Below, piece by piece: positions 1,277 to 50,990 of a DNA stretch of 64,000 nucleotides (position 1 is its first letter; every line of letters begins with the position of its first letter). Origin of the DNA: Desulfovibrionaceae bacterium (lineage in GTDB: Bacteria > Desulfobacterota > Desulfovibrionia > Desulfovibrionales > Desulfovibrionaceae); NCBI GenBank assembly GCA_028689675.1, contig JAQVCS010000008.1, positions 62,001 through 126,000 on the forward strand, written 5' to 3'. Made by a program: the position numbers and the translations under genes. The notes below the pieces were generated by a model. That model was not told the DNA's origin. It was given only the letters and a program-made list of their open reading frames with translations, and did no database searches.

Positions 1277-1424
1277 AATTCCCCCATGCTGTGTGGCTAG
1301 TAAGTCGTGCTGAGTTCACTTTGAAAGCATCGTTCAAGGCTAAGCAAGGCTTGCCCAAGCCTCTTTTGCGGCAAAACTGTGCAGAGCAAGTACATATTTC
1401 TACTGTTTATTTGCCCTAGCAGAC

Positions 1425-2312: not shown

Positions 2313-2387
2313 AGTGCAACCTTTTAAAAGAGGGATAGAACAGCCGCCCCGCATTGCCCTTTGCGCTGGCAATGCGGGGCGTAAGGC

Positions 2388-3492: not shown

Positions 3493-4176
3493 ATGCCTAC
3501 AGAACGTATTTTAATTGTTGAAGATGAAGATGACATTCGCGGCATTCTTGCCTTTAATCTGGAGCGCGAGGGCTATGTGGTTTTTCAGGCTGCCGATGGG
3601 GCGCAGGGCTTGGCTTTGGCCAAAGCGCACAAGCCGCACCTTGCCCTGCTGGACGTGATGCTGCCGGGCATGGATGGCTTTGCCCTGTGCCGCGAGCTTG
3701 AGCGCGACCCTGCCACTGCCAATACGGCCTTGGTCATGCTGACAGCCCGTGGTGAAGAGGTGGATCGCATTGTTGGCCTAGAGCTGGGGGCAGATGACTA
3801 TGTGGTCAAGCCCTTCAGCATGCGTGAGCTTTTGCTGCGTATTAAAATTATTCTACGCCGCCGCCAGCATGCCGAAAGCCCGCAGCCCTTGCTTGAAAGG
3901 CATGCCATTTGCGTGGACAGCACGGCACATACGGTAAAGGTGCAGGGGCAGCCCGTGGCCTTTACTGCCACAGAATTTCGCCTGCTAGAAGATTTGCTGC
4001 GCCATGCTGGCGCTGTGCGCACGCGAGAGCAATTGCTTGATAATGTGTGGGGATATCAGTTTGAAGGCTATGGCCGTACTGTGGATACGCATGTGCGGCG
4101 TGTGCGTGCCAAATTGGGCGATGCCGCAGACATGCTTGAAACAGTGCGCGGCGTTGGCTACAGAATTAAGGAGTAA
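3493..4176 (+). CDS. phoB: Phosphate regulon response regulator PhoB
   Basis: This is a 227-residue OmpR/PhoB-family regulator. The receiver domain spans about residues 1-120, with acidic residues in VEDEDD, phospho-acceptor Asp54 in LLDVMLPGMDG, the Thr of MLTARGEE, and Lys in DDYVVKPFS. A winged-helix DNA-binding domain follows (about 128-225), ending YGRTVDTHVRRVRAKLGD and VRGVGYRIKE. The ATG at 3493 has AAGGA 6 bases upstream. A longer frame from a TTG at 3457 lacks support. The gene is followed 2 bases later by phoR and is expected to activate the divergent pst genes when phosphate is scarce. Confidence 0.95.
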   Translation: MPTERILIVEDEDDIRGILAFNLEREGYVVFQAADGAQGLALAKAHKPHLALLDVMLPGMDGFALCRELERDPATANTALVMLTARGEEVDRIVGLELGADDYVVKPFSMRELLLRIKIILRRRQHAESPQPLLERHAICVDSTAHTVKVQGQPVAFTATEFRLLEDLLRHAGAVRTREQLLDNVWGYQFEGYGRTVDTHVRRVRAKLGDAADMLETVRGVGYRIKE

Positions 4177-4178
4177 TC

Positions 4179-32884: not shown

Positions 32885-34072
32885 ATGGCACAGGCAAAAC
32901 GTGAGAAGGTACAAAAATATGCTGGCGTGTATTTTCGCATTGACGAGGATACTAAGGAGCGCACATACTATATTATGTACCGTATAGGTGGGCGCGGCGC
33001 AAAGCTCATTGAAGAGCCCGTTGGAAAGTCTTCGACGGGTATGACAGGGCGTAAGGCTTCCTTAATTCGTGCTGATAGAATTCGTGGCACAGAATTACCC
33101 AATACCGAAAAAAGAAAAGAAGCCGTAAAAGCCAAGGTTGCCGACCAATCACGGTGGACAATTGAGCGTATATGGCTTTTGTATGAAAGCACCAATGCAG
33201 ACAAACCAACAACCAGAACTGATCGCTATTTTGTGCGCTATCTTTCTGATTTTTTTCAACGCATGCCCACAGAGATAACAACTCAAGATATTGATATTTT
33301 GCGCAAAAAACTTACCACTACCCCTAGTAAGCGCCTTAAAAAGGGGCAGGTGGTTAACCTTGCCCCACAAACGATTAAACATATTTTAGAATTGCTGCGG
33401 CGGCTTATTAATTTTGCTGTTTCGCGTGATATCTGTTTGCCTCCTACGCAGTTGCACTTTACTATGCCCCGTGTCGATAATCAAAAAACAGAAATGCTTA
33501 CCGATGCTCAGCTCGCTCGTTTGCTCCAAGCCTTAGATGAGGAAGTTGATCAGGATGCCGCCGCCTTTATACGCCTTGCCCTTGTTACGGGGATGCGTAA
33601 AGGGGCGCTTATGGCTTTGCGTTGGGATGACTGCGATTTTGAACACAACGTTATCACCCTGCGCGGTGAAGCAGCTAAAAAGGGCACAACAGAATTTATT
33701 CCCATGACCGCCTCCGCCCGTGCTGTGCTGGAATCTATTCAAAACCGCACAAGCCCTTTTGTCTTCCCCGGGCGTGACGGAAAACAGCGTACAGATTACC
33801 GCCGCATTGCCCGCCGCGTTAAAGAAAAAGCTGGGCTGCCCGCTGATTTTCGCCCCTTGCATGGTTTACGACATAATTTCGCCAGCCGTCTTGCTTCTAG
33901 CGGGCAGGTGGAGTTATATGTTATTCAGAAATTGCTCACGCACAGCAGCCCGCAAATGACACAGCGCTATGCCCATTTGCAAAACGAAACCTTGATGAAG
34001 GCCGCCAGCTTGGCTGACACTTTTTTGCTTGAAAAAAAGGACGATTCAAAGGAAGATAGCAACGATTCATAA
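32885..34072 (+). CDS. int: Tyrosine recombinase (island integrase)
   Basis: This is a 395-residue phage-type integrase. An N-terminal arm-binding region and SAM-like core-binding domain (about 100-200) precede the catalytic domain. Catalytic residues are Arg238 in TGMRKGAL, His326/Arg329 in HGLRHNFAS, His in LLTHSSPQMTQRYAHL and nucleophile Tyr362. It reads away from the adjacent tRNA-Arg fragment, as island integrases usually do. GGGAGG lies 5 bases upstream of the ATG. A degraded relative with the same SSGQV...THDSPQMTQRYSHL block is found at 50.6 kb. Confidence 0.95.
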   Translation: MAQAKREKVQKYAGVYFRIDEDTKERTYYIMYRIGGRGAKLIEEPVGKSSTGMTGRKASLIRADRIRGTELPNTEKRKEAVKAKVADQSRWTIERIWLLYESTNADKPTTRTDRYFVRYLSDFFQRMPTEITTQDIDILRKKLTTTPSKRLKKGQVVNLAPQTIKHILELLRRLINFAVSRDICLPPTQLHFTMPRVDNQKTEMLTDAQLARLLQALDEEVDQDAAAFIRLALVTGMRKGALMALRWDDCDFEHNVITLRGEAAKKGTTEFIPMTASARAVLESIQNRTSPFVFPGRDGKQRTDYRRIARRVKEKAGLPADFRPLHGLRHNFASRLASSGQVELYVIQKLLTHSSPQMTQRYAHLQNETLMKAASLADTFLLEKKDDSKEDSNDS

Positions 34073-35075: not shown

Positions 35076-36200
35076 ATGGCAATAAAATCTTTTATTAAAA
35101 AATGCTGGAAAAAGACCCCCTTACCTATACGGGAAGCCGTCCTTGCCTTGCTCTGTTGCGCCCATGCACAGAAACGTTTTTCAGTTGCAGAAAAGAAAAC
35201 GGTCACCTTCGTTTTTGGTGCGTTCCGCTCTTCTAGCGGTTTAGCACAGGGTGCACGTCTGTATGCGGATAAAAAAGAAAAAGAGGGCGCCTGTGTTATC
35301 CGTGTTGATGTGACAGACGCCATGGTGCAGCGGGCAGATTTTCTTCTGCCAGAGAATGTAGTTCCGCTAGAGCAGGCACTTGCCATGCCTGAAAATGGCA
35401 CGGTAGTCATTCATGCAAACCCACCGCAATTTCAGCTTGTTCTCTGTAAACTGGGCAAGCAATTCTTGGCAAATAAACGCATCATTGGCTATTGGGCATG
35501 GGAGCTGGAAGAAATTCCCTCCATCTGGGAGCAAGCTCTGGACTATGTTGATGCTGTGGAAGTACCCAGCACCTTTGTGCAGGCGGCTATCAGCAAGCAC
35601 ACGAACAAAGAAGTTACTGTTGTTCCGCATGATGTTCCTGTGCCTGCGCGGCGCAAAGAGCGGTATGCTGAAGACGGTATTGTGCGATGTTTATATTGTT
35701 TTGATATGTCATCAGCCTTTATGCGTAAGAATCCGTTAGCGGCCTTGCAAGCTTTTTCCTTGGCATTTAAAGATGGTGAGGCTGAATTAACCTTTAAAGT
35801 GAGCAATGTACAGGCTGATCCTAATGCCTTCGACGCATTTAAAAATGCCTGTACGCAAGTTCCATGTGTTCACATCATTACGCAGGCAATGACATCAGAC
35901 GAGCTTACTTCTTTATATTGTCAGAATGATATTTACCTCTCCCTGCATCGTTCTGAAGGGTATGGTTTAACCATCCGAGAAGCCATGTTGTGTGGCCTGC
36001 ATATAGTGGCTACTGGGTGGTCGGGCAATATGGACTTTATGACGGGGGAATTGGCACATCCTGTTCCATATACACTGATACCCTTGAAAGAGGTTGCTGG
36101 AACATTTAAAGGGCTTGAATCTCGCTGGGCAGACGTAGACATAAAGGCTGCGGCTACTATCTTAAGAGCGTTACAGCTAGAATTTTTAAAAAGATATTAA
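35076..36200 (+). CDS. Glycosyltransferase (GT4-like, GT-B fold)
   Basis: This 374-residue protein opens with a basic amphipathic helix (MAIKSFIKKCWKKTPLPIRE). Its donor domain shows DIYLSLHRSEGYGLTIREAM, with an E-x7-E motif and Gly-rich turn characteristic of GT4 retaining transferases. RIIGYWAWELEEIP and VEVPSTFVQAAI are typical of the Desulfovibrio/cyanobacterial glycosyltransferase subgroup with a WELEE motif. It is the first gene of the island glycan cluster and ends 1 base before the next gene. Its composition is intermediate between core and the AT-rich genes that follow. Confidence 0.82.
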   Translation: MAIKSFIKKCWKKTPLPIREAVLALLCCAHAQKRFSVAEKKTVTFVFGAFRSSSGLAQGARLYADKKEKEGACVIRVDVTDAMVQRADFLLPENVVPLEQALAMPENGTVVIHANPPQFQLVLCKLGKQFLANKRIIGYWAWELEEIPSIWEQALDYVDAVEVPSTFVQAAISKHTNKEVTVVPHDVPVPARRKERYAEDGIVRCLYCFDMSSAFMRKNPLAALQAFSLAFKDGEAELTFKVSNVQADPNAFDAFKNACTQVPCVHIITQAMTSDELTSLYCQNDIYLSLHRSEGYGLTIREAMLCGLHIVATGWSGNMDFMTGELAHPVPYTLIPLKEVAGTFKGLESRWADVDIKAAATILRALQLEFLKRY

Positions 36201-36201: not shown

Positions 36202-37272
36202 ATGATAGAGTTAAAAGAAAATGATAATTCTTGTAGAAGGGTCATGCCTGCTTTTGTAGATTGTGATACCCAAATTATATTTGAATCAAGTGATTTTTTT
36301 GTACCATATTTGTCTATTGCATTGGTATCACTCAAACAACATATTTCTGTAGAAAAAAAATATGATATAATTATTCTGAGCTGTGACATATGTATATATA
36401 ATGAGAATAAAATAAAAAATATATTTATTACAAATGAAAATGTTAGCATTCGATGTTTTGATGTCACACCTATAGTCAGTAAGTATATAAAAGATTCAAA
36501 ATTTAAATATTTTGAACTTTGTTTTTGTAGATTGTTACTTCCATGGATTTTTCCAAACTTTAAAAAAATACTTAACCTTGGTGCTGATATTATTATCGAG
36601 AGAGATATTTATGAATTATGTATACAACAGATTCCAGAAGAATACTATTTAGCTGGAGTTGAAGATTTTGGATATCAGGGTAGGCTGGGACGCGATATTT
36701 CTTTCGAAGATTTGTCTCTTAAATATCCATTTAGGTATGTTAATGCAGACGTTTTGATTTATAATTTAGAAAAAATTAGAAATACTTTTACAATAGAAAG
36801 TATAATGTCTGTTTGGCAAAAAAAATTTTTACAATGTGCTGAACAAGATGCACTCAATCTTATCTTTGATGGAAAGATATTCCTTTTAGATTCTCGATGG
36901 AATATATTCCCTAAACGTATGAGCACCGAAGAATATATTAGTAATGCACCTTTAGAGTCAAGGAAAAGGTATGAAAATATATATAATGAACCGTATATTA
37001 TCCACTATGCTGGAGAGCCAAAGCCGTGGGATTTTCCTGACGTCGATTATGCTGAAAGATGGTGGGCATACGCGAGAAAATCTGAATATTATGAATTAAT
37101 ATTATACAATATGTATGAAAAAGCATATGCTAATAAATCGAAAGATTTACTTAAAATTTTATTCCCAAAAGGTTCTTTGTTGAGAAAAATTTTTAAAAAA
37201 TGTTTACCGATGGGGTCTTTAAGGTATGTATATTGTAAACGTATTTTAAAAAAAATACATTTAATGAAGTGA
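36202..37272 (+). CDS. GT8-family glycosyltransferase
   Basis: This 356-residue GT-A enzyme resembles LgtC/WaaJ galactosyl- or glucosyltransferases. Seen are LCFCRLLLPWIFPNFKKILN, the aspartate site at about 126-128, YVNADVLIYNLEKIR, EQDALNLIFDGK and the closing HYAGEPKPW typical of GT8. The usual D-x-D metal motif reads GADIII here, so the first Asp is replaced by Gly. The gene is strikingly AT-rich (well below its neighbours), indicating foreign origin. It begins 1 base after the previous stop. Its start lacks a good ribosome site, suggesting translational coupling. Confidence 0.8.
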   Translation: MIELKENDNSCRRVMPAFVDCDTQIIFESSDFFVPYLSIALVSLKQHISVEKKYDIIILSCDICIYNENKIKNIFITNENVSIRCFDVTPIVSKYIKDSKFKYFELCFCRLLLPWIFPNFKKILNLGADIIIERDIYELCIQQIPEEYYLAGVEDFGYQGRLGRDISFEDLSLKYPFRYVNADVLIYNLEKIRNTFTIESIMSVWQKKFLQCAEQDALNLIFDGKIFLLDSRWNIFPKRMSTEEYISNAPLESRKRYENIYNEPYIIHYAGEPKPWDFPDVDYAERWWAYARKSEYYELILYNMYEKAYANKSKDLLKILFPKGSLLRKIFKKCLPMGSLRYVYCKRILKKIHLMK

Positions 37273-37330: not shown

Positions 37331-39157
37331 ATGAATAAATTTATTAAAAATTTTTTTGCGGATTTTTTTCGTATACTGGCTGTGCTACAGCCCAGAGAGA
37401 AATTAAAGACTATAGTTCTATTTTCCGCTATGGCATTGCAGACGGCATTAGAGCTCTTTTTTATTTTGACGCTGGCATATATGGGAACGGCACTGACTGA
37501 TCCAGAATCATTACGTTCTAAGTTGCTATTCAGAGGCATTTTTTACTGTTTCCCTCTGACGGAGACAATAACACAAGATGCTCGGTATCTTGTGTTATTG
37601 TCTGGGGTCGTGGTTGTCGTTCTTTCTGTGTCAAAAAATATTGTGAATTATGCAACGGCACGGGCTACGGCGCTGTTTAGCGAACAGATATCAATATCTC
37701 TTGGCAAAGAAATTATGTCCCGTTTTCTATATCGAGACTATATATGGCATCTTTCTTCTGAAAGTGGGTCCACATTCCAGAGAATGCTGTGGCGAGGACA
37801 TTTGGCAAGTATGCTGGTTGCACAGCTATCTATGTATGCCTCTATATTGACGTTGCTAGTATTGTTCTTGAGCTTGGTAGGGCAGGAACCAATGCTCACA
37901 ACTATTGTTGTAGCAATTACTGGGACGGTGGGTTTTCTGCTTTACCGAAGTATTCGGCATAATGTGGATATGCAGGCACAGAAGGCGGCAGAAAGTGCGC
38001 AAGAAGAGACCCGGGCACTCATGTGTGCCACCAAGGGCATTCGTGACGTCCTGATTTATCGACAGCAGGATGTTTTTTTAAACACCATCACGGGGGCAGC
38101 CCAAAAGGGGGTTTTGCCTCGAACGTTTAATACCATTGCCCCCACCATGCCCACATGGGTGCTAGAAGCAACAGGCTTTGCTGTGGTTGTGATGGCCATT
38201 GCTTATCTTGTCTGTTTTGAAAAGGCAGAAGTACCACGCATTGCGGAAGCATTGGGTTTACTCATGCTGACGGCATGGCGCGTTCTACCATACGCCAACC
38301 GTGTGGTAAGTTATCAGGTAGGCATTAGAGCGTTGCGCCCTATGACCTCTTCTGTTTTGGATTTATTAGAGAATTTGCGTAACACACCCAGTGACCCGCC
38401 GCCTATTCCAGCAAGAGATTTTACATTTAGGCATGAAATTACACTAGATCAGGTGTCTTTCCGCTATCCTGAGGCGACGGAAGATAGTCTGCACAAGCTA
38501 ACATTTAGTATTCCCGTTGGAAAAAAACTGGGAATTATCGGACCATCTGGTGCAGGAAAAAGTACACTAGTGGGAGTATTAAGCGGTCTACTGCACCCTC
38601 GCGAAGGATCATTGTTCGTAGACGGCAGGGTGTTGGATGCGCCGTGTGCGGCTGCGTTTGCCCAGATCATTGGCTATGTACCACAAAGCCCTTTTCTATT
38701 CGCAGGTACATTGGCAGAAAATGTGGCATTCTGCCAGTGGGGCAAACCATGGGATGAAGCACGGGTGCAAGAAGCCTGTAGTAAAGCAGCTATTGATTTT
38801 ATGGATACTCATCCTCAGGGTATGCTTCAGCCTATAGGAGAAAATGGTGCTGGGCTTTCTGGAGGACAAGCGCAGAGGGTCTCCATAGCTCGAGCCATGT
38901 ACACGCGCCCAAAGTTGTTGATTTTTGACGAAGCCACTAGTGCATTAGATCAGGCTAATGAGAACAGCATACAGCAGACTATTATGGAGCTGTCGGGTGG
39001 AGTGACATGCGTGATTATTGCGCACCGTCTGACCACAGTAGAAAAATGTGACTCATTAATCTGGATGGATAAAGGAAAAATAGTTATGCAGGGGATGCCA
39101 GAAAAGATTTTGCAGCTCTACCGAGAATCGCAAGGAAGACAGGCGCAAGCTATGTGA
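37331..39157 (+). CDS. ABC exporter, fused permease and ATPase (flippase type)
   Basis: This 608-residue half-transporter has an N-terminal transmembrane domain with six helices (about residues 20-320) and a C-terminal nucleotide-binding domain. The domain carries Walker A GPSGAGKSTLVGVLSG, signature LSGGQAQRVSIARAM, Walker B LLIFDEATSALDQ and the switch His in IIAHRLTTVEKCD. PglK and MsbA share this layout. Placed in a glycan cluster without wzx, it may flip a lipid-linked oligosaccharide, though export of another lipid is possible. Functional units would be homodimers in the inner membrane. Confidence 0.85.
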   Translation: MNKFIKNFFADFFRILAVLQPREKLKTIVLFSAMALQTALELFFILTLAYMGTALTDPESLRSKLLFRGIFYCFPLTETITQDARYLVLLSGVVVVVLSVSKNIVNYATARATALFSEQISISLGKEIMSRFLYRDYIWHLSSESGSTFQRMLWRGHLASMLVAQLSMYASILTLLVLFLSLVGQEPMLTTIVVAITGTVGFLLYRSIRHNVDMQAQKAAESAQEETRALMCATKGIRDVLIYRQQDVFLNTITGAAQKGVLPRTFNTIAPTMPTWVLEATGFAVVVMAIAYLVCFEKAEVPRIAEALGLLMLTAWRVLPYANRVVSYQVGIRALRPMTSSVLDLLENLRNTPSDPPPIPARDFTFRHEITLDQVSFRYPEATEDSLHKLTFSIPVGKKLGIIGPSGAGKSTLVGVLSGLLHPREGSLFVDGRVLDAPCAAAFAQIIGYVPQSPFLFAGTLAENVAFCQWGKPWDEARVQEACSKAAIDFMDTHPQGMLQPIGENGAGLSGGQAQRVSIARAMYTRPKLLIFDEATSALDQANENSIQQTIMELSGGVTCVIIAHRLTTVEKCDSLIWMDKGKIVMQGMPEKILQLYRESQGRQAQAM

Positions 39158-39430: not shown

Positions 39431-40207
39431 ATGAAAGTAGTAATTCTTGCTGGTGGTCTTGGAACACGTTTGGGAGAAGAAACAAATATTCGTCCTAAAC
39501 CAATGGTAGAAATTGGTGGAAGACCAATTCTCTGGCATATTATGAAAATTTACTCACACTATGAGATTAATGATTTTATTGTCCTTTGTGGGTATAAACA
39601 TGAAGTTATCAAAGAATATTTTGCAAATTACTATTTAAATAATGCAGATGTTACTTTTGATCTTCAGAAAGGAAAAACAATTATTCAGCACACAAGAGTT
39701 GAACCTTGGAAGGTAACCCTCGTCAATACTGGAGCGGAAACAATGACGGGGGGGCGAATAAAAAAGGTGCGAGAGTATGTCGGTAATGAGACTTTTATGC
39801 TTACATACGGCGATGGGCTTGGGAACGTGGATATTCATATGCTTCTTAAGTTTCATAAGCAGCAGGGACGCTATGCAACCTTGACAACCGTACAGCCACA
39901 GGGGCGTTTTGGTGTGCTTTCTCTCTCTGGGGGAAATGTATCGGAATTTCAGGAAAAGCCTCAGAATGGCGGTTCTTGGATAAATGGTGGTTTTTTTGTT
40001 CTCGAACCTCAAATTTTTGATTTTATTCCTGACGGGGATGACGTGGTTTGGGAGCAAGAACCGTTACGACAGCTCACAAGTGCTGGTCAGCTTGCTGCAT
40101 TCCGACATTATGGATTTTGGCGTCCTATGGATATGCTTAAAGATAAAAAAGATTTGAATGCCATGTGGGATGCCGGTAATGCACCATGGAAGATCTGGAA
40201 GGAATAA
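39431..40207 (+). CDS. rfbF: Glucose-1-phosphate cytidylyltransferase
   Basis: This 258-residue nucleotidyltransferase makes CDP-glucose from glucose-1-phosphate and CTP, the entry to CDP-3,6-dideoxyhexoses. The pyrophosphorylase signature is VVILAGGLGTRLGEET with RPKPMVEIGGRPIL. RfbF-typical blocks include FMLTYGDGLGNVDI, FQEKPQNGGSWINGGFFVLE and FRHYGFWRPMDMLKDKKDL. ATG 39431 follows AGGGA by 6 bases; the frame upstream is open but unsupported. The 273 bases before it are AT-rich without a gene and may hold the promoter. The next gene starts 5 bases after its stop. Confidence 0.96.
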   Translation: MKVVILAGGLGTRLGEETNIRPKPMVEIGGRPILWHIMKIYSHYEINDFIVLCGYKHEVIKEYFANYYLNNADVTFDLQKGKTIIQHTRVEPWKVTLVNTGAETMTGGRIKKVREYVGNETFMLTYGDGLGNVDIHMLLKFHKQQGRYATLTTVQPQGRFGVLSLSGGNVSEFQEKPQNGGSWINGGFFVLEPQIFDFIPDGDDVVWEQEPLRQLTSAGQLAAFRHYGFWRPMDMLKDKKDLNAMWDAGNAPWKIWKE

Positions 40208-40211
40208 TGAG

Positions 40212-41267
40212 ATGATAGAGCTTAATTTTTTCCATGGAAAAAAAGTTTTCATCACTGGTCACAATGGGTTCAAGGGCAGCTGGATGTGTCGCGTGCTTAC
40301 TGGAGTCGGTGCGGAGGTGATAGGGTACAGTTTACCCACACCTGCAGGTATCAACCTCTTTGATATAGCAGACATTGAAGGGAAGTTGCACAATGTCATT
40401 GGTGATATACGCGATTTTGATCACCTCAAAAATACCTTTACTATAGCACAGCCTGAAATTGTAATCCATATGGCGGCGCAGCCTCTTGTGCGCGATTCTT
40501 ATCAAGACCCTCATTACACCTATGAAACTAATGTTATGGGAACAGTAAACATACTTGAATGTATCAGAAGTACTTCGTGTGTGAAGAGTTTTCTTAATGT
40601 TACGACAGATAAGGTCTATCTTAATAATGAATGGTGTTGGGGCTATCGTGAAAATGAAGCTCTTGATGGTTTTGATCCTTATTCAAATTCAAAAAGTTGT
40701 TCTGAAATAATAACACACTGTTATAAAAATAGTTTTTTTTCTGATGGGCATCTTCCAATTAGCACTGCTCGTGCCGGAAATGTCATTGGAGGGGGCGATT
40801 TTGCTACGGATCGTATTATTCCCGATTGCATCCGCGCACAGCAAGTTAGACAGCCAATTAAAGTGCGTAACCCCTTGTCTACGAGACCCTACCAGCATGT
40901 ATTGGAACCAGTTATGGCTTATCTAATGTTAGTTCAGCGTCAATGGGAAGATCGTGCAGTATCGGGATGGTATAATGTAGGCCCAGATGACTGTGATTGT
41001 GTGACCACTGGTCAGCTCGTAGACTTGTTTTGTCGTCTATGGGGAGAAGAGGCTACATGGGAGAATCATACAGAAATAAATGCGCCTCATGAAGCTAATT
41101 TTCTTAAGCTGGACTGCACAAAATTAAAAAATACACTTCACTGGGCTCCGCGTTGGCATATTGAAGAGGCTGTAGAAAAAACATGTGAATGGGCCAAAGT
41201 ATGGCTGGCTGGTGGAAATATTCACGCTGTGATGGATAAACAGATTGACGAGTACGTGAAGGGTTGA
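40212..41267 (+). CDS. rfbG: CDP-glucose 4,6-dehydratase
   Basis: This 351-residue NAD-dependent dehydratase converts CDP-glucose to CDP-4-keto-6-deoxyglucose. The Rossmann motif is VFITGHNGFKGSWMCRVL. The catalytic triad region has NVTTDKVYLNNEWCWGYREN and DPYSNSKSCSE (Tyr/Lys). The CDP-glucose-specific stretch RPYQHVLEPVMAYLMLVQRQ is present. It lies between rfbF and rfbH and is translationally close to both. AAGGA lies 9 bases upstream of ATG 40212. Confidence 0.95.
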   Translation: MIELNFFHGKKVFITGHNGFKGSWMCRVLTGVGAEVIGYSLPTPAGINLFDIADIEGKLHNVIGDIRDFDHLKNTFTIAQPEIVIHMAAQPLVRDSYQDPHYTYETNVMGTVNILECIRSTSCVKSFLNVTTDKVYLNNEWCWGYRENEALDGFDPYSNSKSCSEIITHCYKNSFFSDGHLPISTARAGNVIGGGDFATDRIIPDCIRAQQVRQPIKVRNPLSTRPYQHVLEPVMAYLMLVQRQWEDRAVSGWYNVGPDDCDCVTTGQLVDLFCRLWGEEATWENHTEINAPHEANFLKLDCTKLKNTLHWAPRWHIEEAVEKTCEWAKVWLAGGNIHAVMDKQIDEYVKG

Positions 41268-41317
41268 TGGTAATATCTGCCGCTTTTGCTCTTTCCGGCT
41301 ATAGAGGAATTCAAGGT

Positions 41318-42682
41318 ATGAATCAAACACCTGAAGATATTAAAAAAGAAATAAAACGCCTTGCAGTAAGATATTATGAAATGACCCTTCCTAGCAAACG
41401 TCGTACCGAGTATATCCCCGTTTCTGGAAAATCTCTTGGTTCTGAAGAGCTGTGTGCAATGATTGATGCTTCGTTGGATATGTGGCTCACCGCTGGACAT
41501 TTCAATACTGAATTTGAAAAAAAATTTGCTGAAAAGTTAGGTGTTCGCTATGCTCTTTCGACAAATTCTGGTTCTAGTGCTAATCTGTTAGCAATGACAG
41601 CTCTTACCTCTCCCAAATTGGGAGAGCGCCATTTAAAAAAAGGTGACGAGGTCATTGCCGTTGCCGCAGGATTTCCTACTACGGTAAATCCTATTATCCA
41701 GAATGGACTTATACCTGTTTTTGTAGACATAGATTTAACCACATATAATATTGATATTAACCGTATTGAAGAAGCAATCACACCGAAAACTAAAGCGATC
41801 TTTATCGCTCATACCCTTGGGAATATGTACGACATGGATGCCATGATGGCTCTGTGTGGTCGTTATAATCTATGGATGATTGAGGATAGCTGTGATGCTC
41901 TTGGTGCTCGTTGGAAAGATAGATTTGCGGGCAGCATCGGTCACATTGGTACGTTTAGCTTTTATCCTGCTCATCATATGACCATGGGGGAAGGCGGTGC
42001 CGTCATTACAAATGATTCTAAGTTACACCGCATTCTCATGTCGATACGTGATTGGGGACGTGACTGTTGGTGTCAGCCAGGAACAGACAATACATGCAAG
42101 TGCCGTTTTAACTTACAACTAGGTAAATTGCCTATGGGGTATGATCATAAGTATACTTACTCCCACATTGGCTACAATCTTAAAATTACGGACTGGCAGG
42201 CAGCTATTGGTGTGGAGCAACTCAAAAAGTTAGACGGCTTTTTGGAAAAACGCCGCCAAAATGCGGCAACTCTTTTAGCAGAGTTAGCGGATCTCACACA
42301 CGCTCTTATTCTGCCAACCCCTTCTGAATACTGTACTCCATCTTGGTTTGGCTTTCTCATCTCTGTTCGCCCTGAAGCATCTTTCAGCAAGCAAGAATTA
42401 GTAGAATATTTGGAATCTCACGGCGTAGGGACGCGTCAGCTTTTTGCGGGTAACTTACTGCGACAGCCCATGCTAACTGAGACAGATGTAGAATTACGTA
42501 TTGGTTCAGGAGCGTTGATAAATTCTCGGAATTTGAGCGAAGAACACTACAAGCTGTTGCCTGTAACTGAATTTATTATGAAGCATACATTCTGGGTTGG
42601 GACGGCACAAAATATTGATGAAAATGATGAAAAAGAAATATCCCGCATCATTCATGAATTTGTGAAGAGTCGGTTTATATGA
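41318..42682 (+). CDS. rfbH: CDP-4-keto-6-deoxyglucose 3-dehydrase (RfbH/DdhC/E1)
   Basis: This 454-residue PMP- and [2Fe-2S]-dependent enzyme removes the C3 hydroxyl of CDP-4-keto-6-deoxyglucose. It has an aminotransferase fold, but the PLP-binding lysine is replaced by histidine, visible in FYPAHHMTMGEGG with His219-His220, the hallmark of this dehydrase. Cluster ligands are the clustered cysteines DCWCQPGTDNTCKCRF. An in-frame ATG at 41264 overlaps the rfbG stop with AAGGG before it, so a 472-residue form is possible. I favour 41318 from the family-like N-terminus and its GAGG site. A separate ferredoxin-reductase partner (DdhD) is not seen nearby. Confidence 0.95.
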   Translation: MNQTPEDIKKEIKRLAVRYYEMTLPSKRRTEYIPVSGKSLGSEELCAMIDASLDMWLTAGHFNTEFEKKFAEKLGVRYALSTNSGSSANLLAMTALTSPKLGERHLKKGDEVIAVAAGFPTTVNPIIQNGLIPVFVDIDLTTYNIDINRIEEAITPKTKAIFIAHTLGNMYDMDAMMALCGRYNLWMIEDSCDALGARWKDRFAGSIGHIGTFSFYPAHHMTMGEGGAVITNDSKLHRILMSIRDWGRDCWCQPGTDNTCKCRFNLQLGKLPMGYDHKYTYSHIGYNLKITDWQAAIGVEQLKKLDGFLEKRRQNAATLLAELADLTHALILPTPSEYCTPSWFGFLISVRPEASFSKQELVEYLESHGVGTRQLFAGNLLRQPMLTETDVELRIGSGALINSRNLSEEHYKLLPVTEFIMKHTFWVGTAQNIDENDEKEISRIIHEFVKSRFI

Positions 42683-43557
42683 AGAAAATACTTCTCACGG
42701 GTGGCTCAGGTTTTATTGGTAGGAATCTTTTAGAATCTGTTCTTAATGATACCTATGAAATAAGTGCTCCATCTCATGCAGAACTGGATATTGCAGACAC
42801 TAAAAGTGTTGACCAATATTTTCGTACTCGTGAATTTGATGTGATTCTGCACACGGCGGTGAAGCCCGGCCACCGTAATGCGCCGGACCACACACAACTT
42901 CTTTCCACGAATCTTCGGATGTTCGAAAATCTTGTGCGGCATAAAGATTGCTTCGATAAATTTATTAATTTCGGAAGTGGTGCTGTATATAGTGTATCTG
43001 CTGATAACGCAGGAGTGACAGAAGAAGAGCGTTTTGTTCATATGGGGATAGATGAGCATAGTTTTTGTAAATATGTGGTTGCCAAACGTGTTGAAGCACT
43101 CGAAGGTTTTATTGATTTAAATATTTTCGGCATATTCGGAAAATATGAGGATTACACAATTCGGTTTATTTCGAATGCAATCTGTAAAAGTATATTCTGT
43201 CTGCCTGTCACCTTGCGTCAGAATCGCCGCTTTAGTTATCTAGATGTAAATGACTTACCAAAGATTTTAGAATTTTTTATTGAAAATGATGTACAGTATC
43301 ATTCATACAATATCACTCCGCCCGGATTTGTTGAACTAGAGCAGCTCGCAATATACATTGCAAAAAAGGGTAATGTTCCAGTTCAAATTGGTGCTGATGG
43401 CTATGGACTTAATTATTACGGCTCAAATCTGCGACTTGTAAGAGAATTCCCACAGATTATATTCACAGATATCAAAAAATCTATTGACAGACTGTACGAA
43501 TATTATAGTGTTCGGAAAGAAAAATTTGATAAATCTTTACTTAAATTTGATCGCTGA
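42679..43557 (+). CDS. NAD-dependent epimerase/dehydratase (sugar 4-ketoreductase candidate)
   Basis: This 292-residue extended SDR has the cofactor loop LLTGGSGFIGRNLLE, a catalytic Ser region INFGSGAVYSVS, and a Tyr/Lys pair that in this protein reads FCKYVVAKRVEALE. Its start ATGA overlaps the rfbH stop by 4 bases, implying coupled translation and a role on the RfbH product. In dideoxysugar pathways this position is held by the reductase that sets C4 (abequose, paratose, tyvelose) or, in yersiniose synthesis, reduces the added side chain (YerF). The next gene encodes a carbon-ligating enzyme, so the second option is attractive but unproven. Confidence 0.82.
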   Translation: MKKILLTGGSGFIGRNLLESVLNDTYEISAPSHAELDIADTKSVDQYFRTREFDVILHTAVKPGHRNAPDHTQLLSTNLRMFENLVRHKDCFDKFINFGSGAVYSVSADNAGVTEEERFVHMGIDEHSFCKYVVAKRVEALEGFIDLNIFGIFGKYEDYTIRFISNAICKSIFCLPVTLRQNRRFSYLDVNDLPKILEFFIENDVQYHSYNITPPGFVELEQLAIYIAKKGNVPVQIGADGYGLNYYGSNLRLVREFPQIIFTDIKKSIDRLYEYYSVRKEKFDKSLLKFDR

Positions 43558-43572
43558 GTATGGAAAAATAAA

Positions 43573-45384
43573 ATGATAATCAAAGTTTCAAACTATATAT
43601 CTAAATATTTGGCAGAATATGGTATTACCCATATCTTCACTGTCACCGGCGGGGGAGCTATGCATCTCAATGATGCATTCGGCCATCAAAAGGGAATAAA
43701 ATGTATTTATAATCATCACGAGCAGGCTTGTGCTATCGCCGGAGAAAGCTATGCGCGTATCAATAACCGCATAGCCGCTGTCTGTGTGACCACAGGTCCC
43801 GGTGCTACCAATGCTCTAACAGGAGTCGTAGGCGGATACCTTGACTCTATTCCCATGTTGATTTTATCCGGTCAGGTTCGATATGACACCACAGCCCGCT
43901 GGTCAGGCTTAAATATCCGTGCCATGGGAGATCAGGAGTTTGATATCTGCAACAGTGTGAAATCAATGACTAAATATTGTGAAATGGTCATTGATCCATT
44001 AAAAATTAAATCCTGTCTTCAAAAGGCTTTGCATATCGCGCAGACAGGTCGCCCCGGTCCCTGTTGGTTAGATATTCCATTGAATGTACAGGGAAGTTTT
44101 GTGGAAACAGATGATCTTGAGGACTGGAACTGCACTTCATATGATGCCATGCTCCCTCCGCCCATTTCAAAAAATATCATTGAGACAGTGCTGGAAAAAA
44201 TACGTTCAGCGCAGCGTCCAATATTTTATGCCGGCAATGGTATCCGAATTGCCGACGCCCATAAATTTTTTATTTCTGTAGTAAAAAAATTGAATATTCC
44301 CGTCGTCACCGGCTGGAACAGTATTGATGCTATTTATGATGAGCATCCCTTATATACGGGCCGCGCCGGTATTATGGGTGACAGAGCTGGAAATTTTGCC
44401 GTCCAGAACAGTGACCTCATTTTTTCCGTTGGCAGTCGTTTGAGTATCAGACAGGTAGGTTATAATTATAAGACATGGGCACGGGAAGCCTTTGTCATTG
44501 CCAATGATATTGATGCCGAAGAACTGAAGAAACCCACGCTACATGTAGAACTGCCGATTTGGGCTGATGCTAAAGATCTTCTTGAAAAGCTGGACAGATT
44601 CCTACCCCAGGAAAAATTGTTCAAGGGGGAAGACTGGCTGAACTGTTGCCACGGATGGAAGGAAAAATATCCAGTAGTTCAGAAGAAACATTTTGAACAG
44701 AAAGAATTAGTCAATATTTATGCATTCATCTCGGTACTGAGTCATCGGTTAAAAGAGGGGCAAATCACAGTCGTAGGGAATGGTTCTGCCTGTGTGGTGG
44801 GCAGTCATGGTTATGTCATAAAAAAAGATTCCCGATTTATCGTTAATTCTGCTATCGCCTCCATGGGCTACGATCTGCCCGCCGCCATTGGAGCCTGTGT
44901 AGCTACGTCATCCCAAGACATTATCAATGTAACGGGTGACGGCAGTATTCAGATGAATATTCAGGAGTTGCAGACTATTATTACAAATCATCTGCCTATC
45001 AAAATATTTATTATCAATAATAATGGTTATCATTCTATACGTCAAACACAAAATAATTTTTTTGGGAAGCCACTTGTAGGCATCGGCCCTGAAAGCGGGG
45101 ATCTCGGGTTCCCCGATATGGCCAAGCTCGCTCCGGCCTATGGCTATCCATTCTTCCGCATCAGCAGCAATAAGGAACTGGATAAAATAGATCAGGTGCT
45201 TGCTACGCCCGGGCCTGTTATCTGTGAAATATTAGTTGATAGTGAACAAAAATTTGAGCCTAAAGCCGCCACTCGACGGCTAGAAGATGGAACGCTGGTG
45301 TCGGCGCCCCTTGAGGATCTCGCACCGTTTCTTGATAGAAAAGAATTGGCGGAAAATCTGTTTATTCCATCTGTGGAAAAATAA
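43573..45384 (+). CDS. Thiamine-diphosphate-dependent carboligase, acetolactate-synthase-like
   Basis: This 603-residue protein has the three ThDP-enzyme domains. The catalytic Glu50 is in YNHHEQACAIAGESYAR. The central domain spans about 200-340, and the ThDP/Mg motif is TGDGSIQMN...FIINNNGYHS. The middle domain keeps the FAD-region pattern of acetolactate synthases, so FAD may be bound. Residue 70-80 TTGPGATNALTG is typical. Yersinia YerE, a relative, transfers a two-carbon unit from pyruvate to the 4-keto group of CDP-3,6-dideoxyhexose to make yersiniose. The position right after rfbFGH and an SDR supports a similar branch-forming reaction. Ordinary branched-chain amino-acid synthesis is unlikely here because no small subunit or ilv gene is near. 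Confidence 0.85.
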   Translation: MIIKVSNYISKYLAEYGITHIFTVTGGGAMHLNDAFGHQKGIKCIYNHHEQACAIAGESYARINNRIAAVCVTTGPGATNALTGVVGGYLDSIPMLILSGQVRYDTTARWSGLNIRAMGDQEFDICNSVKSMTKYCEMVIDPLKIKSCLQKALHIAQTGRPGPCWLDIPLNVQGSFVETDDLEDWNCTSYDAMLPPPISKNIIETVLEKIRSAQRPIFYAGNGIRIADAHKFFISVVKKLNIPVVTGWNSIDAIYDEHPLYTGRAGIMGDRAGNFAVQNSDLIFSVGSRLSIRQVGYNYKTWAREAFVIANDIDAEELKKPTLHVELPIWADAKDLLEKLDRFLPQEKLFKGEDWLNCCHGWKEKYPVVQKKHFEQKELVNIYAFISVLSHRLKEGQITVVGNGSACVVGSHGYVIKKDSRFIVNSAIASMGYDLPAAIGACVATSSQDIINVTGDGSIQMNIQELQTIITNHLPIKIFIINNNGYHSIRQTQNNFFGKPLVGIGPESGDLGFPDMAKLAPAYGYPFFRISSNKELDKIDQVLATPGPVICEILVDSEQKFEPKAATRRLEDGTLVSAPLEDLAPFLDRKELAENLFIPSVEK

Positions 45385-45394
45385 GGAAAGAACT

Positions 45395-46987
45395 ATGGGT
45401 AATATTTATCTCCTTGACTGCACCCTACGCGATGGCGGTTATATTAATAACTGGGAATTTGGTTATGATGCCATCCGCAATATCGGGCGCAAAATAGCTA
45501 AGGCAGGAATTGAAGGATTTGAAGTCGGATTTATTAAAGGCGATATTTTTTCAAAAGATAAAACTATCTATCCTAATGTTTCCTGTGTTGAAGATATTAT
45601 TGCCCCTAAGGATCCTCGCTTGATGTATATCGGTATGGTAGACATGAATGCCCCCGTGCCGCTAGAACGTATAGGACATCGCAACCCACGTTCTTTGGAC
45701 GCCATCCGCGTTATCTTCAAAAAAAATAAACTTGAAGAGGGTTATATTTATTGTGATAAAATTAAAAGGCTGGGTTATATAGTCTTTGCTCAACTTGTAG
45801 GGACAGATAATTACAGTGATGGCGAATTCATCAATGCGGTCAAGATGTTTAATAAACTTGAACCTGATGTCCTTTCTATTGTTGATACATTCGGTGCCAT
45901 TCGTTTAAAACAATTTCTACGCCTTGTTTACATAGCTGACAATAATCTAAAACCAACGATTGGCCTTGGTTATCATTCTCATAACAATCTCCAGCAGGCA
46001 TTTAGTAATGCACAAAGTATGGTTGAGCTAAATCTCTCTCGAGATATCTATATTGATGCCTGCGTCTTTGGTATGGGACGGGGAGCTGGCAATCTGAATC
46101 TGGAACTTTTTGCTGAGTATCTAAATCATACTGAAAAGAAAGATTACCAGATAGAACCTATGCTTGAAATTGCTGATGAATATCTAAATGATATTCATAA
46201 GCAACACTTCTGGGGGTATTCATTGCCCTACTATCTATCAGCCTGTAATAATTGTCATCCGAATTATGCATTATATTTTTCTGAAAAACAGACCCTAACG
46301 GCAAAGTCTTTAAATGAGATAATGCAAGGGATGACACCGGCTCACCGCCAATCGTACGATAAGGAAATTGCGGAAAAATACTATCGACAATACATGGAAA
46401 ACTATATCAACGATATAGAGGCAATCCGCACACTGTCCAGTGAATTTTCTGACAGAACGGTACTGCTGCTTGCACCGGGTTCCAGCATTTATGAATATGC
46501 TGACAATATTATGAAATTCATTAGTCTCCATGATGCGGTAGTTATTTCTTTGAACTTTTTCTGTGAAAATTTTCCTATCACTTACATTTTTAGTAGTAAT
46601 ATGCGCAGATATGTACATCTTCAGGAAAAAGTACAGGTACGAAAAATTATTACTTCAAATATCAAGGACGCAGTTTGCTACGATTATATGATCAATTTCT
46701 CAAGTTATTGCTCAATCTATCCTGAAATTATCGATAATTCTGCTATAATGGCTCTCAATATGCTCAATGCTTCAGGTGTTTCTCATATATATGTTGCTGG
46801 CCTTGACGGGTATACATCACAGTGTACGGGGAATTACTGCAATAAATCTCTCGATTTTAATTTTTCAGATATTTTTGCTCAACGTAATTCTTGTATATCC
46901 CAAGCGCTTAATGAAATTAAAAAAAGACTTGGTATAACCTTCCTCACTCCGACTATATACAACATTGAGGATGTGCCAAATGAGTGA
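45395..46987 (+). CDS. DRE-TIM (HMGL/4-hydroxy-2-oxovalerate-type) aldolase fused to a C-terminal domain
   Basis: This 530-residue protein has N-terminal residues 1-280 forming a DRE-TIM metallolyase. The start is YLLDCTLRDGGYINNW with catalytic Arg12 and metal-binding Asp13, and GYHSHNNLQQAFSNAQ supplies metal ligands His194 and His196. MGRGAGNLNLELFAEYL matches the DmpG-type tail. These enzymes add or cleave pyruvate. Residues about 340-530 form a second Rossmann-like domain (VLLLAPGSSIYEYADNIMKF, later SGVSHIYVAGLDGY), resembling DUF115/MAF-type glycan-associated domains. AAGGAAAG precedes ATG 45395, and the end overlaps the kinase gene by 8 bases. No acetaldehyde dehydrogenase partner is encoded, so catabolic use is unlikely. 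Confidence 0.82.
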   Translation: MGNIYLLDCTLRDGGYINNWEFGYDAIRNIGRKIAKAGIEGFEVGFIKGDIFSKDKTIYPNVSCVEDIIAPKDPRLMYIGMVDMNAPVPLERIGHRNPRSLDAIRVIFKKNKLEEGYIYCDKIKRLGYIVFAQLVGTDNYSDGEFINAVKMFNKLEPDVLSIVDTFGAIRLKQFLRLVYIADNNLKPTIGLGYHSHNNLQQAFSNAQSMVELNLSRDIYIDACVFGMGRGAGNLNLELFAEYLNHTEKKDYQIEPMLEIADEYLNDIHKQHFWGYSLPYYLSACNNCHPNYALYFSEKQTLTAKSLNEIMQGMTPAHRQSYDKEIAEKYYRQYMENYINDIEAIRTLSSEFSDRTVLLLAPGSSIYEYADNIMKFISLHDAVVISLNFFCENFPITYIFSSNMRRYVHLQEKVQVRKIITSNIKDAVCYDYMINFSSYCSIYPEIIDNSAIMALNMLNASGVSHIYVAGLDGYTSQCTGNYCNKSLDFNFSDIFAQRNSCISQALNEIKKRLGITFLTPTIYNIEDVPNE

Positions 46988-48002
46988 TATTATTACATTT
47001 GGCGAAATTATGCTGCGCTTGTCGCCGCCAAACTATCAGCGCGTTATTCAAGCTAGTTCCTTTAATGCTACTTACGGTGGTGCTGAAGCCAATGTAGCAA
47101 CCTCTCTAGCACAATTTGGTCTTGAGACCGACTATGTAACGAAGTTACCAAAAAATTTTCTAGGGGATGCGGCATTTAATGAATTACGCCGCTATGGCGT
47201 AGGGGTGTCCTCTATAGTGCGAGGCGGGGGCCGTCTGGGGATTTATTTCGCCGAAAGAGGAGCGAGTCAGCGTGGTTCCACGGTGCTCTATGACCGCTAC
47301 GGATCCGCGTTTCAGCAAAGCGCGGCGGAAACCTGGAACTGGGAAAAAATATTCGCTGGAGCCCGCTGGTTTCATTTCACCGGCATCACTCCGGCCCTCG
47401 GCAAAAATGTAGCACAGGCTTGTCTAGATGCTTGCACGACAGCCCGCAAAATGGGCTTGACCGTTAGTTGTGATCTTAATTTTCGTAGCAAATTATGGAG
47501 CCAAGAACAGGCCCGACAGACCATGACAGAACTTTGTCATTATGTGGACGTTTGTATTGCCAATGAGGAAGACGCCTATAGTGTTTTCGGTATACAAACA
47601 GATCAGAAGGCCCTGCTTTCCGGAAAATTGGATTTAGATGCTTATAAGCAAACGGCAAAAAAACTTCATGAGCGTTTTGGATTCCACAAGGTGGCCATTA
47701 CTCTGCGCCGTTCTTTTTCCGCCAGTGACAATAACTGGTCAGCATTGCTTCTTGATGAAGAAGGCCTTTATCACAGTAGGGAGTACTCTATACATATTGT
47801 TGATCGCATTGGCGGTGGTGATGCCTTCGGCGCCGGTTTACTCTATGGTCTGCTGAAGGGGATGCATGGGCGGGATGCGCTTGAATTTGGTGTAGCCGCA
47901 GGCTGTTTGAAACAAACTATCGATGGAGATTTTAACCTGTCGACAGTGGCAGAAATACAAAAACTTGCCCATGGGGATGCTTCCGGCAGAGTACAGAGGT
48001 AA
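46980..48002 (+). CDS. PfkB-family sugar kinase, 2-keto-3-deoxygluconate-kinase-like
   Basis: This 340-residue ribokinase-fold kinase has the substrate lid region FGEIMLRLSPP and YGGAEANVATSLAQFG. The catalytic anion-hole motif DRIGGGDAFGAGLLYGLLKG contains the base Asp. The nearest named family is KdgK, which phosphorylates 2-keto-3-deoxy acids. In this cluster a 2-keto-3-deoxy product would be the expected outcome of a pyruvate aldolase, encoded by the overlapping upstream gene, so the kinase may act on that product. GAGG lies 9 bases before the ATG at 46980. Composition is closer to core genes than the flanking transferases. Confidence 0.85.
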   Translation: MSDIITFGEIMLRLSPPNYQRVIQASSFNATYGGAEANVATSLAQFGLETDYVTKLPKNFLGDAAFNELRRYGVGVSSIVRGGGRLGIYFAERGASQRGSTVLYDRYGSAFQQSAAETWNWEKIFAGARWFHFTGITPALGKNVAQACLDACTTARKMGLTVSCDLNFRSKLWSQEQARQTMTELCHYVDVCIANEEDAYSVFGIQTDQKALLSGKLDLDAYKQTAKKLHERFGFHKVAITLRRSFSASDNNWSALLLDEEGLYHSREYSIHIVDRIGGGDAFGAGLLYGLLKGMHGRDALEFGVAAGCLKQTIDGDFNLSTVAEIQKLAHGDASGRVQR

Positions 48003-48035: not shown

Positions 48036-49022
48036 ATGAACTTAAAAGACACATTAGAAATATTCATTATTACATACAATAGAAAACCGTATTTACAAAA
48101 AACGTTCGATCAGATATTTTCTGAAAATTCACCAATAAAAGATTTAAAAATAACAATTCTAGATAATAAATCTACAGATGGAACATCTGAGCTAATAGAA
48201 GAATATATAAAAATATTTCATAATATTAGACACATAGTTCATAGTTATAATATTGGTGGCAATGCAAATATAGCAAGAGCATTTGAAACAGCTTCCTCAA
48301 AATTTGTTTGGATTATATGTGATGATGATGAATATGATTTCTCCTATTGGAATGAAGTCCAAAATGCTATAGATGAAGAAAAAAATCTCATCGTTGTAGC
48401 AAATTATCTTAAACCGAAAGAATCAAAAGTTAATTTAATTAAACAATTAACTTTTGTACCTGCGGGAATATACAAAGTCAGCAATTTTAATTCCACCATG
48501 ATGATTAACATGCACTATTGTATTTCGAGTATGTTTCCACAAATGGCGATTTTTGCTGATATTATCAATAAACAAAAAGAAATATACATTTGTCAGCATT
48601 GGTGTGTACGCATGAAGGTCAATGAAGATGCTGCATATACGCGCGGAGTAACAGGATTTCCTCACCCCTATATGAAAGATTGTTTTTGGCATTCAGGCTT
48701 TGCTACTGCCATTCAGCTATTTGAAAATAAGAACTTACGCAAAGAACTTATGGATAATATAGACCTTGATGGTCAAAAAGGTTTTCGGTGCATGGTGAAA
48801 TTAGCCTCCATTTCATATGAACAATATAATAATCGAATAAGAAATCTCTTTGATTTATTTTCTGCCTGCTCCGCACAACAAAAAATATCTCTTATACTCG
48901 CCATATTATATTATTATATATTACTTATACATATATGTAAGATAAAAATATTTCTTAAAAAACAATTAAAAAAATCTCCTTTTCTTTTTGATCTTGCAAA
49001 AAGATTTTTAGGAAAAAAATAA
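48036..49022 (+). CDS. GT2-family glycosyltransferase
   Basis: This 328-residue GT-A enzyme has its nucleotide-binding start at LEIFIITYNRKPYLQKT, ITILDNKSTDGTSE, and the metal site WIICDDDEYD (D-x-D type). A hydrophobic C-terminal stretch (ISLILAILYYYILLIHICK) followed by a Lys-rich tail suggests membrane association. The gene is very AT-rich, like the GT8 gene. It lies 33 bases after the kinase gene and is the last gene of the glycan cluster before the IS5-like element. Confidence 0.82.
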   Translation: MNLKDTLEIFIITYNRKPYLQKTFDQIFSENSPIKDLKITILDNKSTDGTSELIEEYIKIFHNIRHIVHSYNIGGNANIARAFETASSKFVWIICDDDEYDFSYWNEVQNAIDEEKNLIVVANYLKPKESKVNLIKQLTFVPAGIYKVSNFNSTMMINMHYCISSMFPQMAIFADIINKQKEIYICQHWCVRMKVNEDAAYTRGVTGFPHPYMKDCFWHSGFATAIQLFENKNLRKELMDNIDLDGQKGFRCMVKLASISYEQYNNRIRNLFDLFSACSAQQKISLILAILYYYILLIHICKIKIFLKKQLKKSPFLFDLAKRFLGKK

Positions 49023-49047: not shown

Positions 49048-49889
49048 AGATAGTGTCGTCAATTAATTTTAGCCCAAATAGCAATACATCTGATCTGCAC
49101 TGCGGCAATGAATGATGAGGTGTTTTTGACATATCTTGTAGCAATGCCACGCCAGCGTTTCAGTTCTAAAAATGCGTTTTCTACCAAATGGCGATAACGA
49201 TATAAATATTTATCGTAATCTCGCGGATCTGTACGATTTTTGCGCGGAGGGATGACTGGCGTTACGCCATTTTCCATAAGGGCATTCGCAAATTCATCGC
49301 TGTCATACCCCTTGTCGGCCAAGAGATTTTCAGCTTTTATTCCTTTAACAAGCCTGCATGCTTGAGAGCAATCAGCAACGGTACCTGATGTAATAAACAT
49401 TCTGACCGGCATACCATGCGCATCCACGGCCAAATGTATCTTGGTGTTGAGCTCCCTTTTGTGCGTCCCATGGTCTGGTTACCGCCGCGTGCGCCTGCTG
49501 CATGAGGATGCACCTTGATGTGACTTGCATCTATCATCAGCCACTCAAAATCAGGGTCGACGACAAGAATTTCGAGCAACTTTTCCCAATTTCCCTTGTC
49601 GCGCCATCGGCAAAAACGACGATGGGTATTTTTCCAGTCCCCGTAGTCGGGAGGAAGGTCTCTCCATGGGGCTCCTGTACGCAAAATTCAAAAAACAGCG
49701 TTAATAAACAGTCGATTGTCACGAGCGGTAACCCCTCTGACACCTTGCCGCCCCGGAAGGTGCGGCTCCAAAAGTTCCCAAATTCTGTCAGATATGTCGT
49801 GCGATGATATGTTGCAGTCATATTTTCCTCATTTTCGAGGAAGATAGCAGAAAATTTAACGAATGAAAATACAATTGACTACACTATCT
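49048..49889 (-). mobile_element. IS5-family insertion sequence (IS427-like), degraded
   Basis: The 842-base element has imperfect terminal inverted repeats: AGATAGTGTCGTCAATT at 49048 and, inverted, AGATAGTGTAGTCAATT ending at 49889 (one mismatch over 17). Left and right flanks show TT and AG, so no clear target duplication remains. The transposase ORF fills the element on the minus strand but is interrupted. It sits directly after the GT2 gene and marks the edge of the glycan cluster. Confidence 0.88.
49059..49821 (-). pseudogene. IS5-family transposase, interrupted by nonsense and frameshift
   Basis: Three minus-strand pieces reconstruct one DDE transposase of about 250 residues. The N-terminal part (DISDRIWELLEPHLPGRQG) has no start codon in frame and ends at a TGA where the family has Trp (FINAVF-stop-ILRTGAPW). 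The middle part contains RTGAPWRDLPPDYGDWK and DPDFEWLMIDASHIK (first catalytic Asp). The C-terminal part follows a frame change at an AAAAGGG tract and holds LLADKGYDSDEF (second Asp) and LVENAFLELKRWRGIATR (Glu). Frameshift at an A/G slippery tract is programmed in some IS427 members. The TGA and the missing start are not, so the copy is probably dead in cis. Confidence 0.88.
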
Positions 49890-50639: not shown

Positions 50640-50990
50640 TCAAATTTCAAAAACGGTATCTGACGATACACCGTGAAGACAAGCACAAGAAACGCTATCT
50701 TTTTTTACTCTCTTCGCAGACAGGGAAAATAGGATTACCTTGTTGAAGTAAAATTTCCGCACGGGTGACTCCGCATTGGCAACCTGCTGGAAGTACAGGC
50801 TTATCACCTCCGCTGTGCACTTCATGGCATCGTCAACAAGATGGCTGTAGCGTTGTGTCATTTGTGGGCTGTCATGCGTCATGAGCTTTTGCAGGACGAA
50901 CATATCCACCTGCCCACTGCTGGCACGATGCAAAGGTATGCCGTAAGCTATGCAGGGAGCGAACGTCCTTCGGTAATCCAGCATTGCTCT
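50640..50990 (-). pseudogene. Frameshifted C-terminal piece of a second tyrosine integrase
   Basis: Two minus-strand frames together give GLPKDVRSLHSLRHTFAS (the HxLRH block) and, after a one-base shift, ASSGQVDMFVLQKLMTHDS and PQMTQRYSHLVDDAM with the catalytic Tyr. It is clearly related to the intact integrase at 32885-34072 but distinct in sequence. Everything N-terminal is gone. It adjoins the broken DUF4143 ATPase. It shows that another integrative element once ended or recombined here. Confidence 0.85.

Follow-up and report, generated by a model that had tools for sequence, protein, structure and literature searches.

Introduction

Branching of sugars at C-4 by YerE-like thiamine diphosphate (ThDP) enzymes is an already known kind of chemistry, long hydroxylated donors included, and JanthE and YerE enzymes, with existing structures, have been described in the literature. 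The yersiniose enzyme of Yersinia prefers pyruvate, with a C3 chain the longest that it transfers; ErwE, the enzyme of Pectobacterium atrosepticum for erwiniose, leaves pyruvate unused, its preferred donors being 4-hydroxy-2-oxo acids; and MMAR_2332, of the caryophyllose pathway, is like ErwE in that hydroxylated 2-oxo acids are reported as its donors (PMC12247030). The caryophyllose branch is a 1,3,4,5-tetrahydroxyhexyl group (PMC5706390), which, being 2'-deoxy, is what would remain once an aldol product of pyruvate had been decarboxylated and transferred. Here we report the analysis of an operon in a window of 64,000 nucleotides from a Desulfovibrionaceae bacterium (contig JAQVCS010000008.1, positions 62,001 to 126,000), where seven genes at 39431-48002 encode RfbF, RfbG, RfbH, a short-chain dehydrogenase/reductase (SDR), a ThDP enzyme, a DRE-TIM aldolase and a PfkB kinase. 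The initial annotation of this locus knew of no biochemical description of the full gene set, but the absence of any comparable system is not supported in view of ErwE, MMAR_2332 and the more than 200 YerE-like clusters already predicted, for most of which a known product is lacking (PMC12247030). The product of the operon is probably a higher-carbon 3,6-dideoxyhexose, activated by CDP and branched at C-4, that would enter a surface polysaccharide; its branch would come from a donor made by the aldolase.

Comparison with described branched-sugar pathways

With the yersiniose A pathway of Yersinia the operon has in common rfbFGH, a YerE-like ThDP enzyme and an SDR, but it adds the aldolase and the kinase, and its ThDP enzyme is nearer to JanthE than to 5ahk, which we take to be PpYerE. 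A yersiniose-type locus (L206) carries rfbFGH, a ThDP gene whose product is 58% identical to 5ahk and an SDR gene, with no aldolase. The erwiniose pathway of Pectobacterium has in common with the window rfbFGH, a YerE-like ThDP enzyme, a DRE-TIM pyruvate aldolase and an SDR. Six of 25 Pectobacterium genomes possess rfbH, and in two of the six (L199 and L200) rfbFGH is accompanied by genes for an HpcH/HpaI aldolase, a YerE-like ThDP enzyme, an oxidoreductase, an acetaldehyde dehydrogenase, a 4-hydroxy-2-oxovalerate (HOA) aldolase and an SDR; the dehydrogenase and HOA aldolase share 57% and 63% identity with counterparts in L181 that pass the curated cut-offs TIGR03215 and TIGR03217. L199 and L200 would presumably make erwiniose. 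Where these loci have a canonical HOA aldolase, an acetaldehyde dehydrogenase and a second aldolase of the HpcH/HpaI type, the window instead has a kinase and an aldolase that is fused and non-canonical. What the operon would share with the caryophyllose pathway (MMAR_2332, Mycobacterium marinum) is the expected type of product, a long hydroxylated 2'-deoxy chain at C-4.

In the pathway that we favour, RfbF, RfbG and RfbH would supply CDP-4-keto-3,6-dideoxyglucose, the established function of their families. Pyruvate and an aldehyde would be joined by the DRE-TIM aldolase, giving a 4-hydroxy-2-oxo (2-keto-3-deoxy) acid; the YerE-like enzyme, by analogy with ErwE, would decarboxylate this aldol acid and place the acyl anion on C-4 of the keto sugar; and the SDR would reduce the new ketone. 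An aldol donor, decarboxylation and reduction by the SDR would together yield a branch that, like that of caryophyllose, is hydroxylated at 1' and 3' but deoxy at 2', and its length would be set by the aldehyde that the aldolase takes up.

The predicted carboligase

The best relative of solved structure for the ThDP enzyme is 8rph, presumably JanthE (412 bits; 36% identity over 588 residues); all others have 233 bits or less, with 233 for 5ahk and at most 228 for acetohydroxyacid synthases (AHAS), plant enzymes included. A housekeeping acetolactate synthase was ruled out by this difference, by a separate AHAS-like ThDP gene (31% identity) elsewhere in the genome and by clade placement. The catalytic Glu50 and the ThDP motif, with GDG at 455-457 and NNN, are all there. 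JanthE has CDG in place of GDG, and of its pocket residues V121, Y268 and P293 are D, M and R in the window enzyme while Y297 and K567 are retained. When 84,980 species genomes were scanned, 19 loci reached at least 44% identity, and 61 others, which resemble AHAS operons, had at most 34%; rfb genes lie within six genes in 12 of the former and none of the latter. Relatives of the SDR (45-49%) also stand beside YerE-like ThDP genes, in L038, L054, L179 and L282. Judged by sequence, the ThDP enzyme is thus a predicted YerE-like C-4 carboligase with putative carboligation onto the ketone, which lends support to the earlier proposal that, with the SDR and rfbFGH, it is a counterpart of YerE. It groups with sequences from Clostridia in a clade of good support, the nearest identity being 68%.

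The aldolase and its neighbourhoods

In the aldolase a DRE-TIM part (residues ∼1-345) is fused to a C-terminal domain (∼350-530). Residues 1-345 have a predicted fold like those of 3dxi and DmpG, 1nvm (AlphaFold pLDDT 87; Foldseek TM 0.69-0.80 by target length), and Asp13, His194 and His196, whose roles as metal ligands we assume from DmpG, are invariant in 53 aldolase sequences, so that fold and Asp-His-His site are common to the two. For the C-terminal domain alone the predicted structure was unusable (pLDDT 37), and Pfam gives weak MptE-like matches, in a few relatives. Three aldolases from Lachnospiraceae, at 51-53% identity and each near a YerE-like ThDP gene, form a group with the window aldolase; next nearest to this group are two aldolases beside split transketolases.

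Aldolase relatives occur in 82 of 348 genomes searched (the family of one Lachnospiraceae genome), and at 34 of 55 Lachnospiraceae aldolase sites with fetched neighbourhoods a YerE-like ThDP gene lies within five genes. Seventeen of these 34 sites also have rfb genes, 18 have a HAD-phosphatase-like gene near the aldolase, and a frequent order is rfbFGH-aldolase-(HAD)-ThDP-SDR. Across the ThDP scan, an aldolase is near 7 of the 19 YerE-like loci and 0 of the 61 AHAS loci (Fisher p = 1.6e-5, for loci that are not independent); a first count of 8 of 61 AHAS loci was dropped, as the matches were weak (65-76 bits) and in proteins of 514-582 residues taken to be isopropylmalate or citramalate synthases. 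In 15 genomes with a ThDP cluster, a full-length aldolase was found solely inside the cluster in four and nowhere in the rest, and the E. coli genomes searched gave no match. An aldolase of a different family, HpcH/HpaI, adjoins the ThDP gene in L052, L054 and L059. The same gene set, in varying order, was found again in dozens of other genomes, and this recurrence argues that it is not due to chance. Given the 34 of 55 sites and the canonical HOA aldolase in the Pectobacterium loci, the aldolase most likely makes the donor of the carboligase, and the longer branch that the initial annotation had suggested gains support from the same two observations. That annotation also held that regular co-occurrence of the ThDP, aldolase and kinase genes in a catabolic locus free of rfbFGH would count against the pathway: ThDP and aldolase genes do occur without rfb genes within five genes at 17 of the 34 sites, but no catabolic context was recognised there, in an inspection that was not systematic.

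Several observations weigh against this role for the aldolase, or against reading it from the operon. The protein scores 60.9 bits against the HOA aldolase model (TIGR03217), well short of the cut-off of 286, and its TLRDGGY motif places Tyr16 where canonical HOA aldolases (SLRDGSH) have His; the canonical enzymes of L181 and L199 have this His after RDG, and we take it to be the catalytic base. It thus differs from DmpG in family score and in this residue, and further in its extra C-terminal domain and the want of a dehydrogenase partner: an acylating acetaldehyde dehydrogenase was looked for among the operon genes and not found, so that the genes do not point to a particular aldehyde. Close relatives of the window ThDP enzyme exist both with and without an aldolase, and the donor can therefore not be read from the ThDP sequence alone; residues of the donor pocket, at the JanthE positions, gave no separation of clusters with and without an aldolase. 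The count of 34 in 55 is biased upward, since the query aldolase was chosen from a ThDP-linked locus, and the pathway in this organism is predicted from its genes.

In a plainer scheme, the ThDP enzyme would use pyruvate, the SDR would reduce an acetyl branch as in yersiniose synthesis, and the aldolase and kinase would make a second, separate building block, for example a sugar of the 2-keto-3-deoxy-ulosonic acid type. Those ThDP relatives that are nearest (L042, L043, L045 and L046; 63-68%) have rfbFGH and an SDR with no aldolase, a CMP-sugar synthetase (a CMP-ulosonate-type cytidylyltransferase) is found at 8 of the 55 aldolase sites, and in L208 and L040 the aldolase is near both such a cytidylyltransferase and a PfkB kinase. 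However, no cytidylyltransferase other than RfbF was seen in the island, a gap of just 10 bases separates the aldolase gene from the preceding ThDP gene, and the three aldolase relatives at 51-53% are near YerE-like ThDP genes, so we regard this scheme as rather unlikely.

Looking beyond the donor-making role that we favour for it here, it is conceivable, though somewhat less likely than not, that the fused aldolase represents a novel type of 2-keto-3-deoxy-acid (ulosonate) synthase whose product would meet two fates, CMP-activation in some loci and ThDP-dependent C-branching of CDP-dideoxysugars in others; the window operon would then lead to a novel higher-carbon sugar whose branch depends on the kinase.

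The kinase

The kinase is closest to the 2-keto-3-deoxygluconate (KDG) kinase of T. maritima (2afb, 381 bits, full length), and the arginines of its YDRYGSA and DLNFR motifs align with those of the T. thermophilus enzyme (1V1A), where they may bind the substrate carboxylate. A 2-oxo acid is the probable substrate of the window kinase. This kinase is the sole copy in the genome, and a relative above 40% identity is present in one of 118 other genomes of the family (G103, 43%), adjoining a gene resembling 2-keto-3-deoxy-6-phosphogluconate (KDPG) aldolase. A catabolic cassette, in which kinase and aldolase degrade KDG and adjoin the sugar operon by chance, would fit that neighbour and the match to an authentic KDG kinase. 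A KDPG/KHG aldolase (PF01081) is present in 8 of 14 control genomes but absent from this one, which is 99.5% complete, and ordinary KDG breakdown is therefore unlikely; moreover, the aldolase is of the DRE-TIM and not the KDPG type, the kinase gene starts within the sugar operon, 8 bases of it shared with the end of the aldolase gene, in an island of low G+C, and the kinase was found in neither genus relative searched. We therefore hold the cassette to be highly improbable.

Four separate loci, the window operon among them, place the kinase next to an aldolase or not far from one, the other three being L059 (aldolase of the HpcH/HpaI type; kinase identity 57%), L208 (50%) and L040 (37%). In L208, which is viral-classed, a cytidylyltransferase (PF02348), a full-length aldolase and the kinase relative follow in a row at 892-4218. 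As a refinement of the favoured pathway, aldolase and kinase could deliver a phosphorylated donor to the ThDP enzyme, with the branch staying phosphorylated or being processed later. The HAD-phosphatase-like genes near the aldolase in 18 of the 34 aldolase-ThDP loci hint at phosphorylated intermediates, and no aldolase site has both a PfkB kinase and a HAD gene; set against this, the case for the kinase is built on four loci, and we think the refinement distinctly unlikely.

Gene layout and genomic setting

The spacing between the seven genes is, in order, 4, 50, -4, 15, 10 and -8 bases, all seven reading frames are intact, and the close co-directional packing noted initially is thereby confirmed, as are the rfbFGH identities, all three products scoring above curated NCBIfam cut-offs (Table 1). 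Profile matches of the SDR, ThDP enzyme, aldolase and kinase are at superfamily level only. RfbH has His at the position of the pyridoxal phosphate-binding lysine of aminotransferases (SFYPAHHMTMGEGG), the SDR has the motifs YVVAK and TGGSGFIG, and the aldolase starts at ATG 45395 with GGAAAG upstream. Since a GT2 gene begins 33 bases after the kinase gene, and glycosyltransferase and ABC-transporter genes precede rfbF, the operon extends beyond 39431-48002; the exporter may move a glycan lipid. Matches from a simple promoter and terminator scan were barely above those in shuffled sequence.

Table 1. Coordinates (window positions) and supporting matches of the operon genes and their neighbours.
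Feature	Position	Strand	Evidence
GT4-like glycosyltransferase, upstream	35076-36200	+	weak PF13692/PF00534
GT8 glycosyltransferase, upstream	36202-37272	+	PF01501
ABC exporter, PglK/MsbA-like, upstream	37331-39157	+	TIGR02203 and PglK matches, below cut-off
rfbF, glucose-1-phosphate cytidylyltransferase (CDP-glucose)	39431-40207	+	TIGR02623 408.9 bits, cut-off 300
rfbG, CDP-glucose 4,6-dehydratase	40212-41267	+	TIGR02622 438.3 bits, cut-off 278
rfbH, CDP-4-dehydro-6-deoxyglucose 3-dehydrase (pyridoxamine phosphate enzyme)	41318-42682	+	NF011936 646.2 bits, cut-off 423
SDR reductase, putative YerF-like role (reducing new branch ketone)	42679-43557	+	PF01370
Predicted YerE-like ThDP carboligase	43573-45384	+	8rph 412 bits; motifs; clade placement
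DRE-TIM pyruvate-type aldolase with C-terminal domain, putative 2-oxo-acid donor maker	45395-46987	+	PF00682, fold match
PfkB kinase, 2-keto-3-deoxygluconate kinase type	46980-48002	+	2afb 381 bits; NF041633 second half 549 bits
GT2 glycosyltransferase, 3' end of operon	48036-49022	+	PF00535

The polysaccharide-gene island has a G+C content of ∼41%, compared with 52.7% for window positions 1-32000, and the GT2 gene falls to 29%. This drop, together with the Clostridia clade of the ThDP enzyme (nearest relative 68%), suggests lateral transfer. The island comes with an integrase gene at 32885-34072. Directly after the operon there is an insertion sequence transposase remnant in two frames (49059-49684), and 50640-50984 resembles an integrase fragment.

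Variant loci

The two aldolases beside split transketolases, nearest outside the window aldolase branch, belong to Desulfovibrionaceae loci that also have rfbH (L039, 9105-13354, and L207, 5846-10014, the latter on Desulfobaculum bizertense plasmid NZ_CP090010, where the aldolase is annotated as a hypothetical protein). Here two transketolase halves replace the YerE-like enzyme, suggesting a transketolase-driven branched sugar outside Streptomyces. A further locus, in a genome of an enterobacterial family (L204, 5419-12438), has rfbFGH, an SDR and a split transketolase, with no aldolase.

Among viral-classed IMG/VR contigs, L270-L276, L289 and L290 carry a short aldolase gene (∼340 residues) directly before a YerE-like ThDP gene (43-47% identity), together with SDR and sugar genes, and possibly represent phage-borne branched-sugar pathways; L274 has a collagen-like protein of tail-fibre type near the pair. 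In L277-L288 and L291-L293, likewise viral-classed IMG/VR contigs, rfbH-like and YerE-like ThDP genes are found, mostly without an aldolase. YerE-like ThDP and aldolase genes occur with an AroB-related cyclizing enzyme in L038 (11091-12826; TIGR04425), L050, L185 and L186, some of them also with an FGGY kinase, a combination that may point to a branch made of a cyclised polyol.

Implications

Within our partial coverage of the literature we found no description of a recurring donor-making role for the fused aldolase, of its sharing with CMP-ulosonate-like loci or of the kinase, and we make no claim to priority. Few long-branched bacterial sugars are known so far. The comparisons suggest a genomic rule by which a cluster with no aldolase would make a two-carbon branch, and one with a pyruvate aldolase a longer 2'-deoxy branch. 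Applied to genomes, the rule flags Lachnospiraceae of the gut by the dozen, along with certain Desulfovibrionaceae and phage contigs, as candidate sources of undescribed sugars and of new enzymes that form carbon-carbon bonds.

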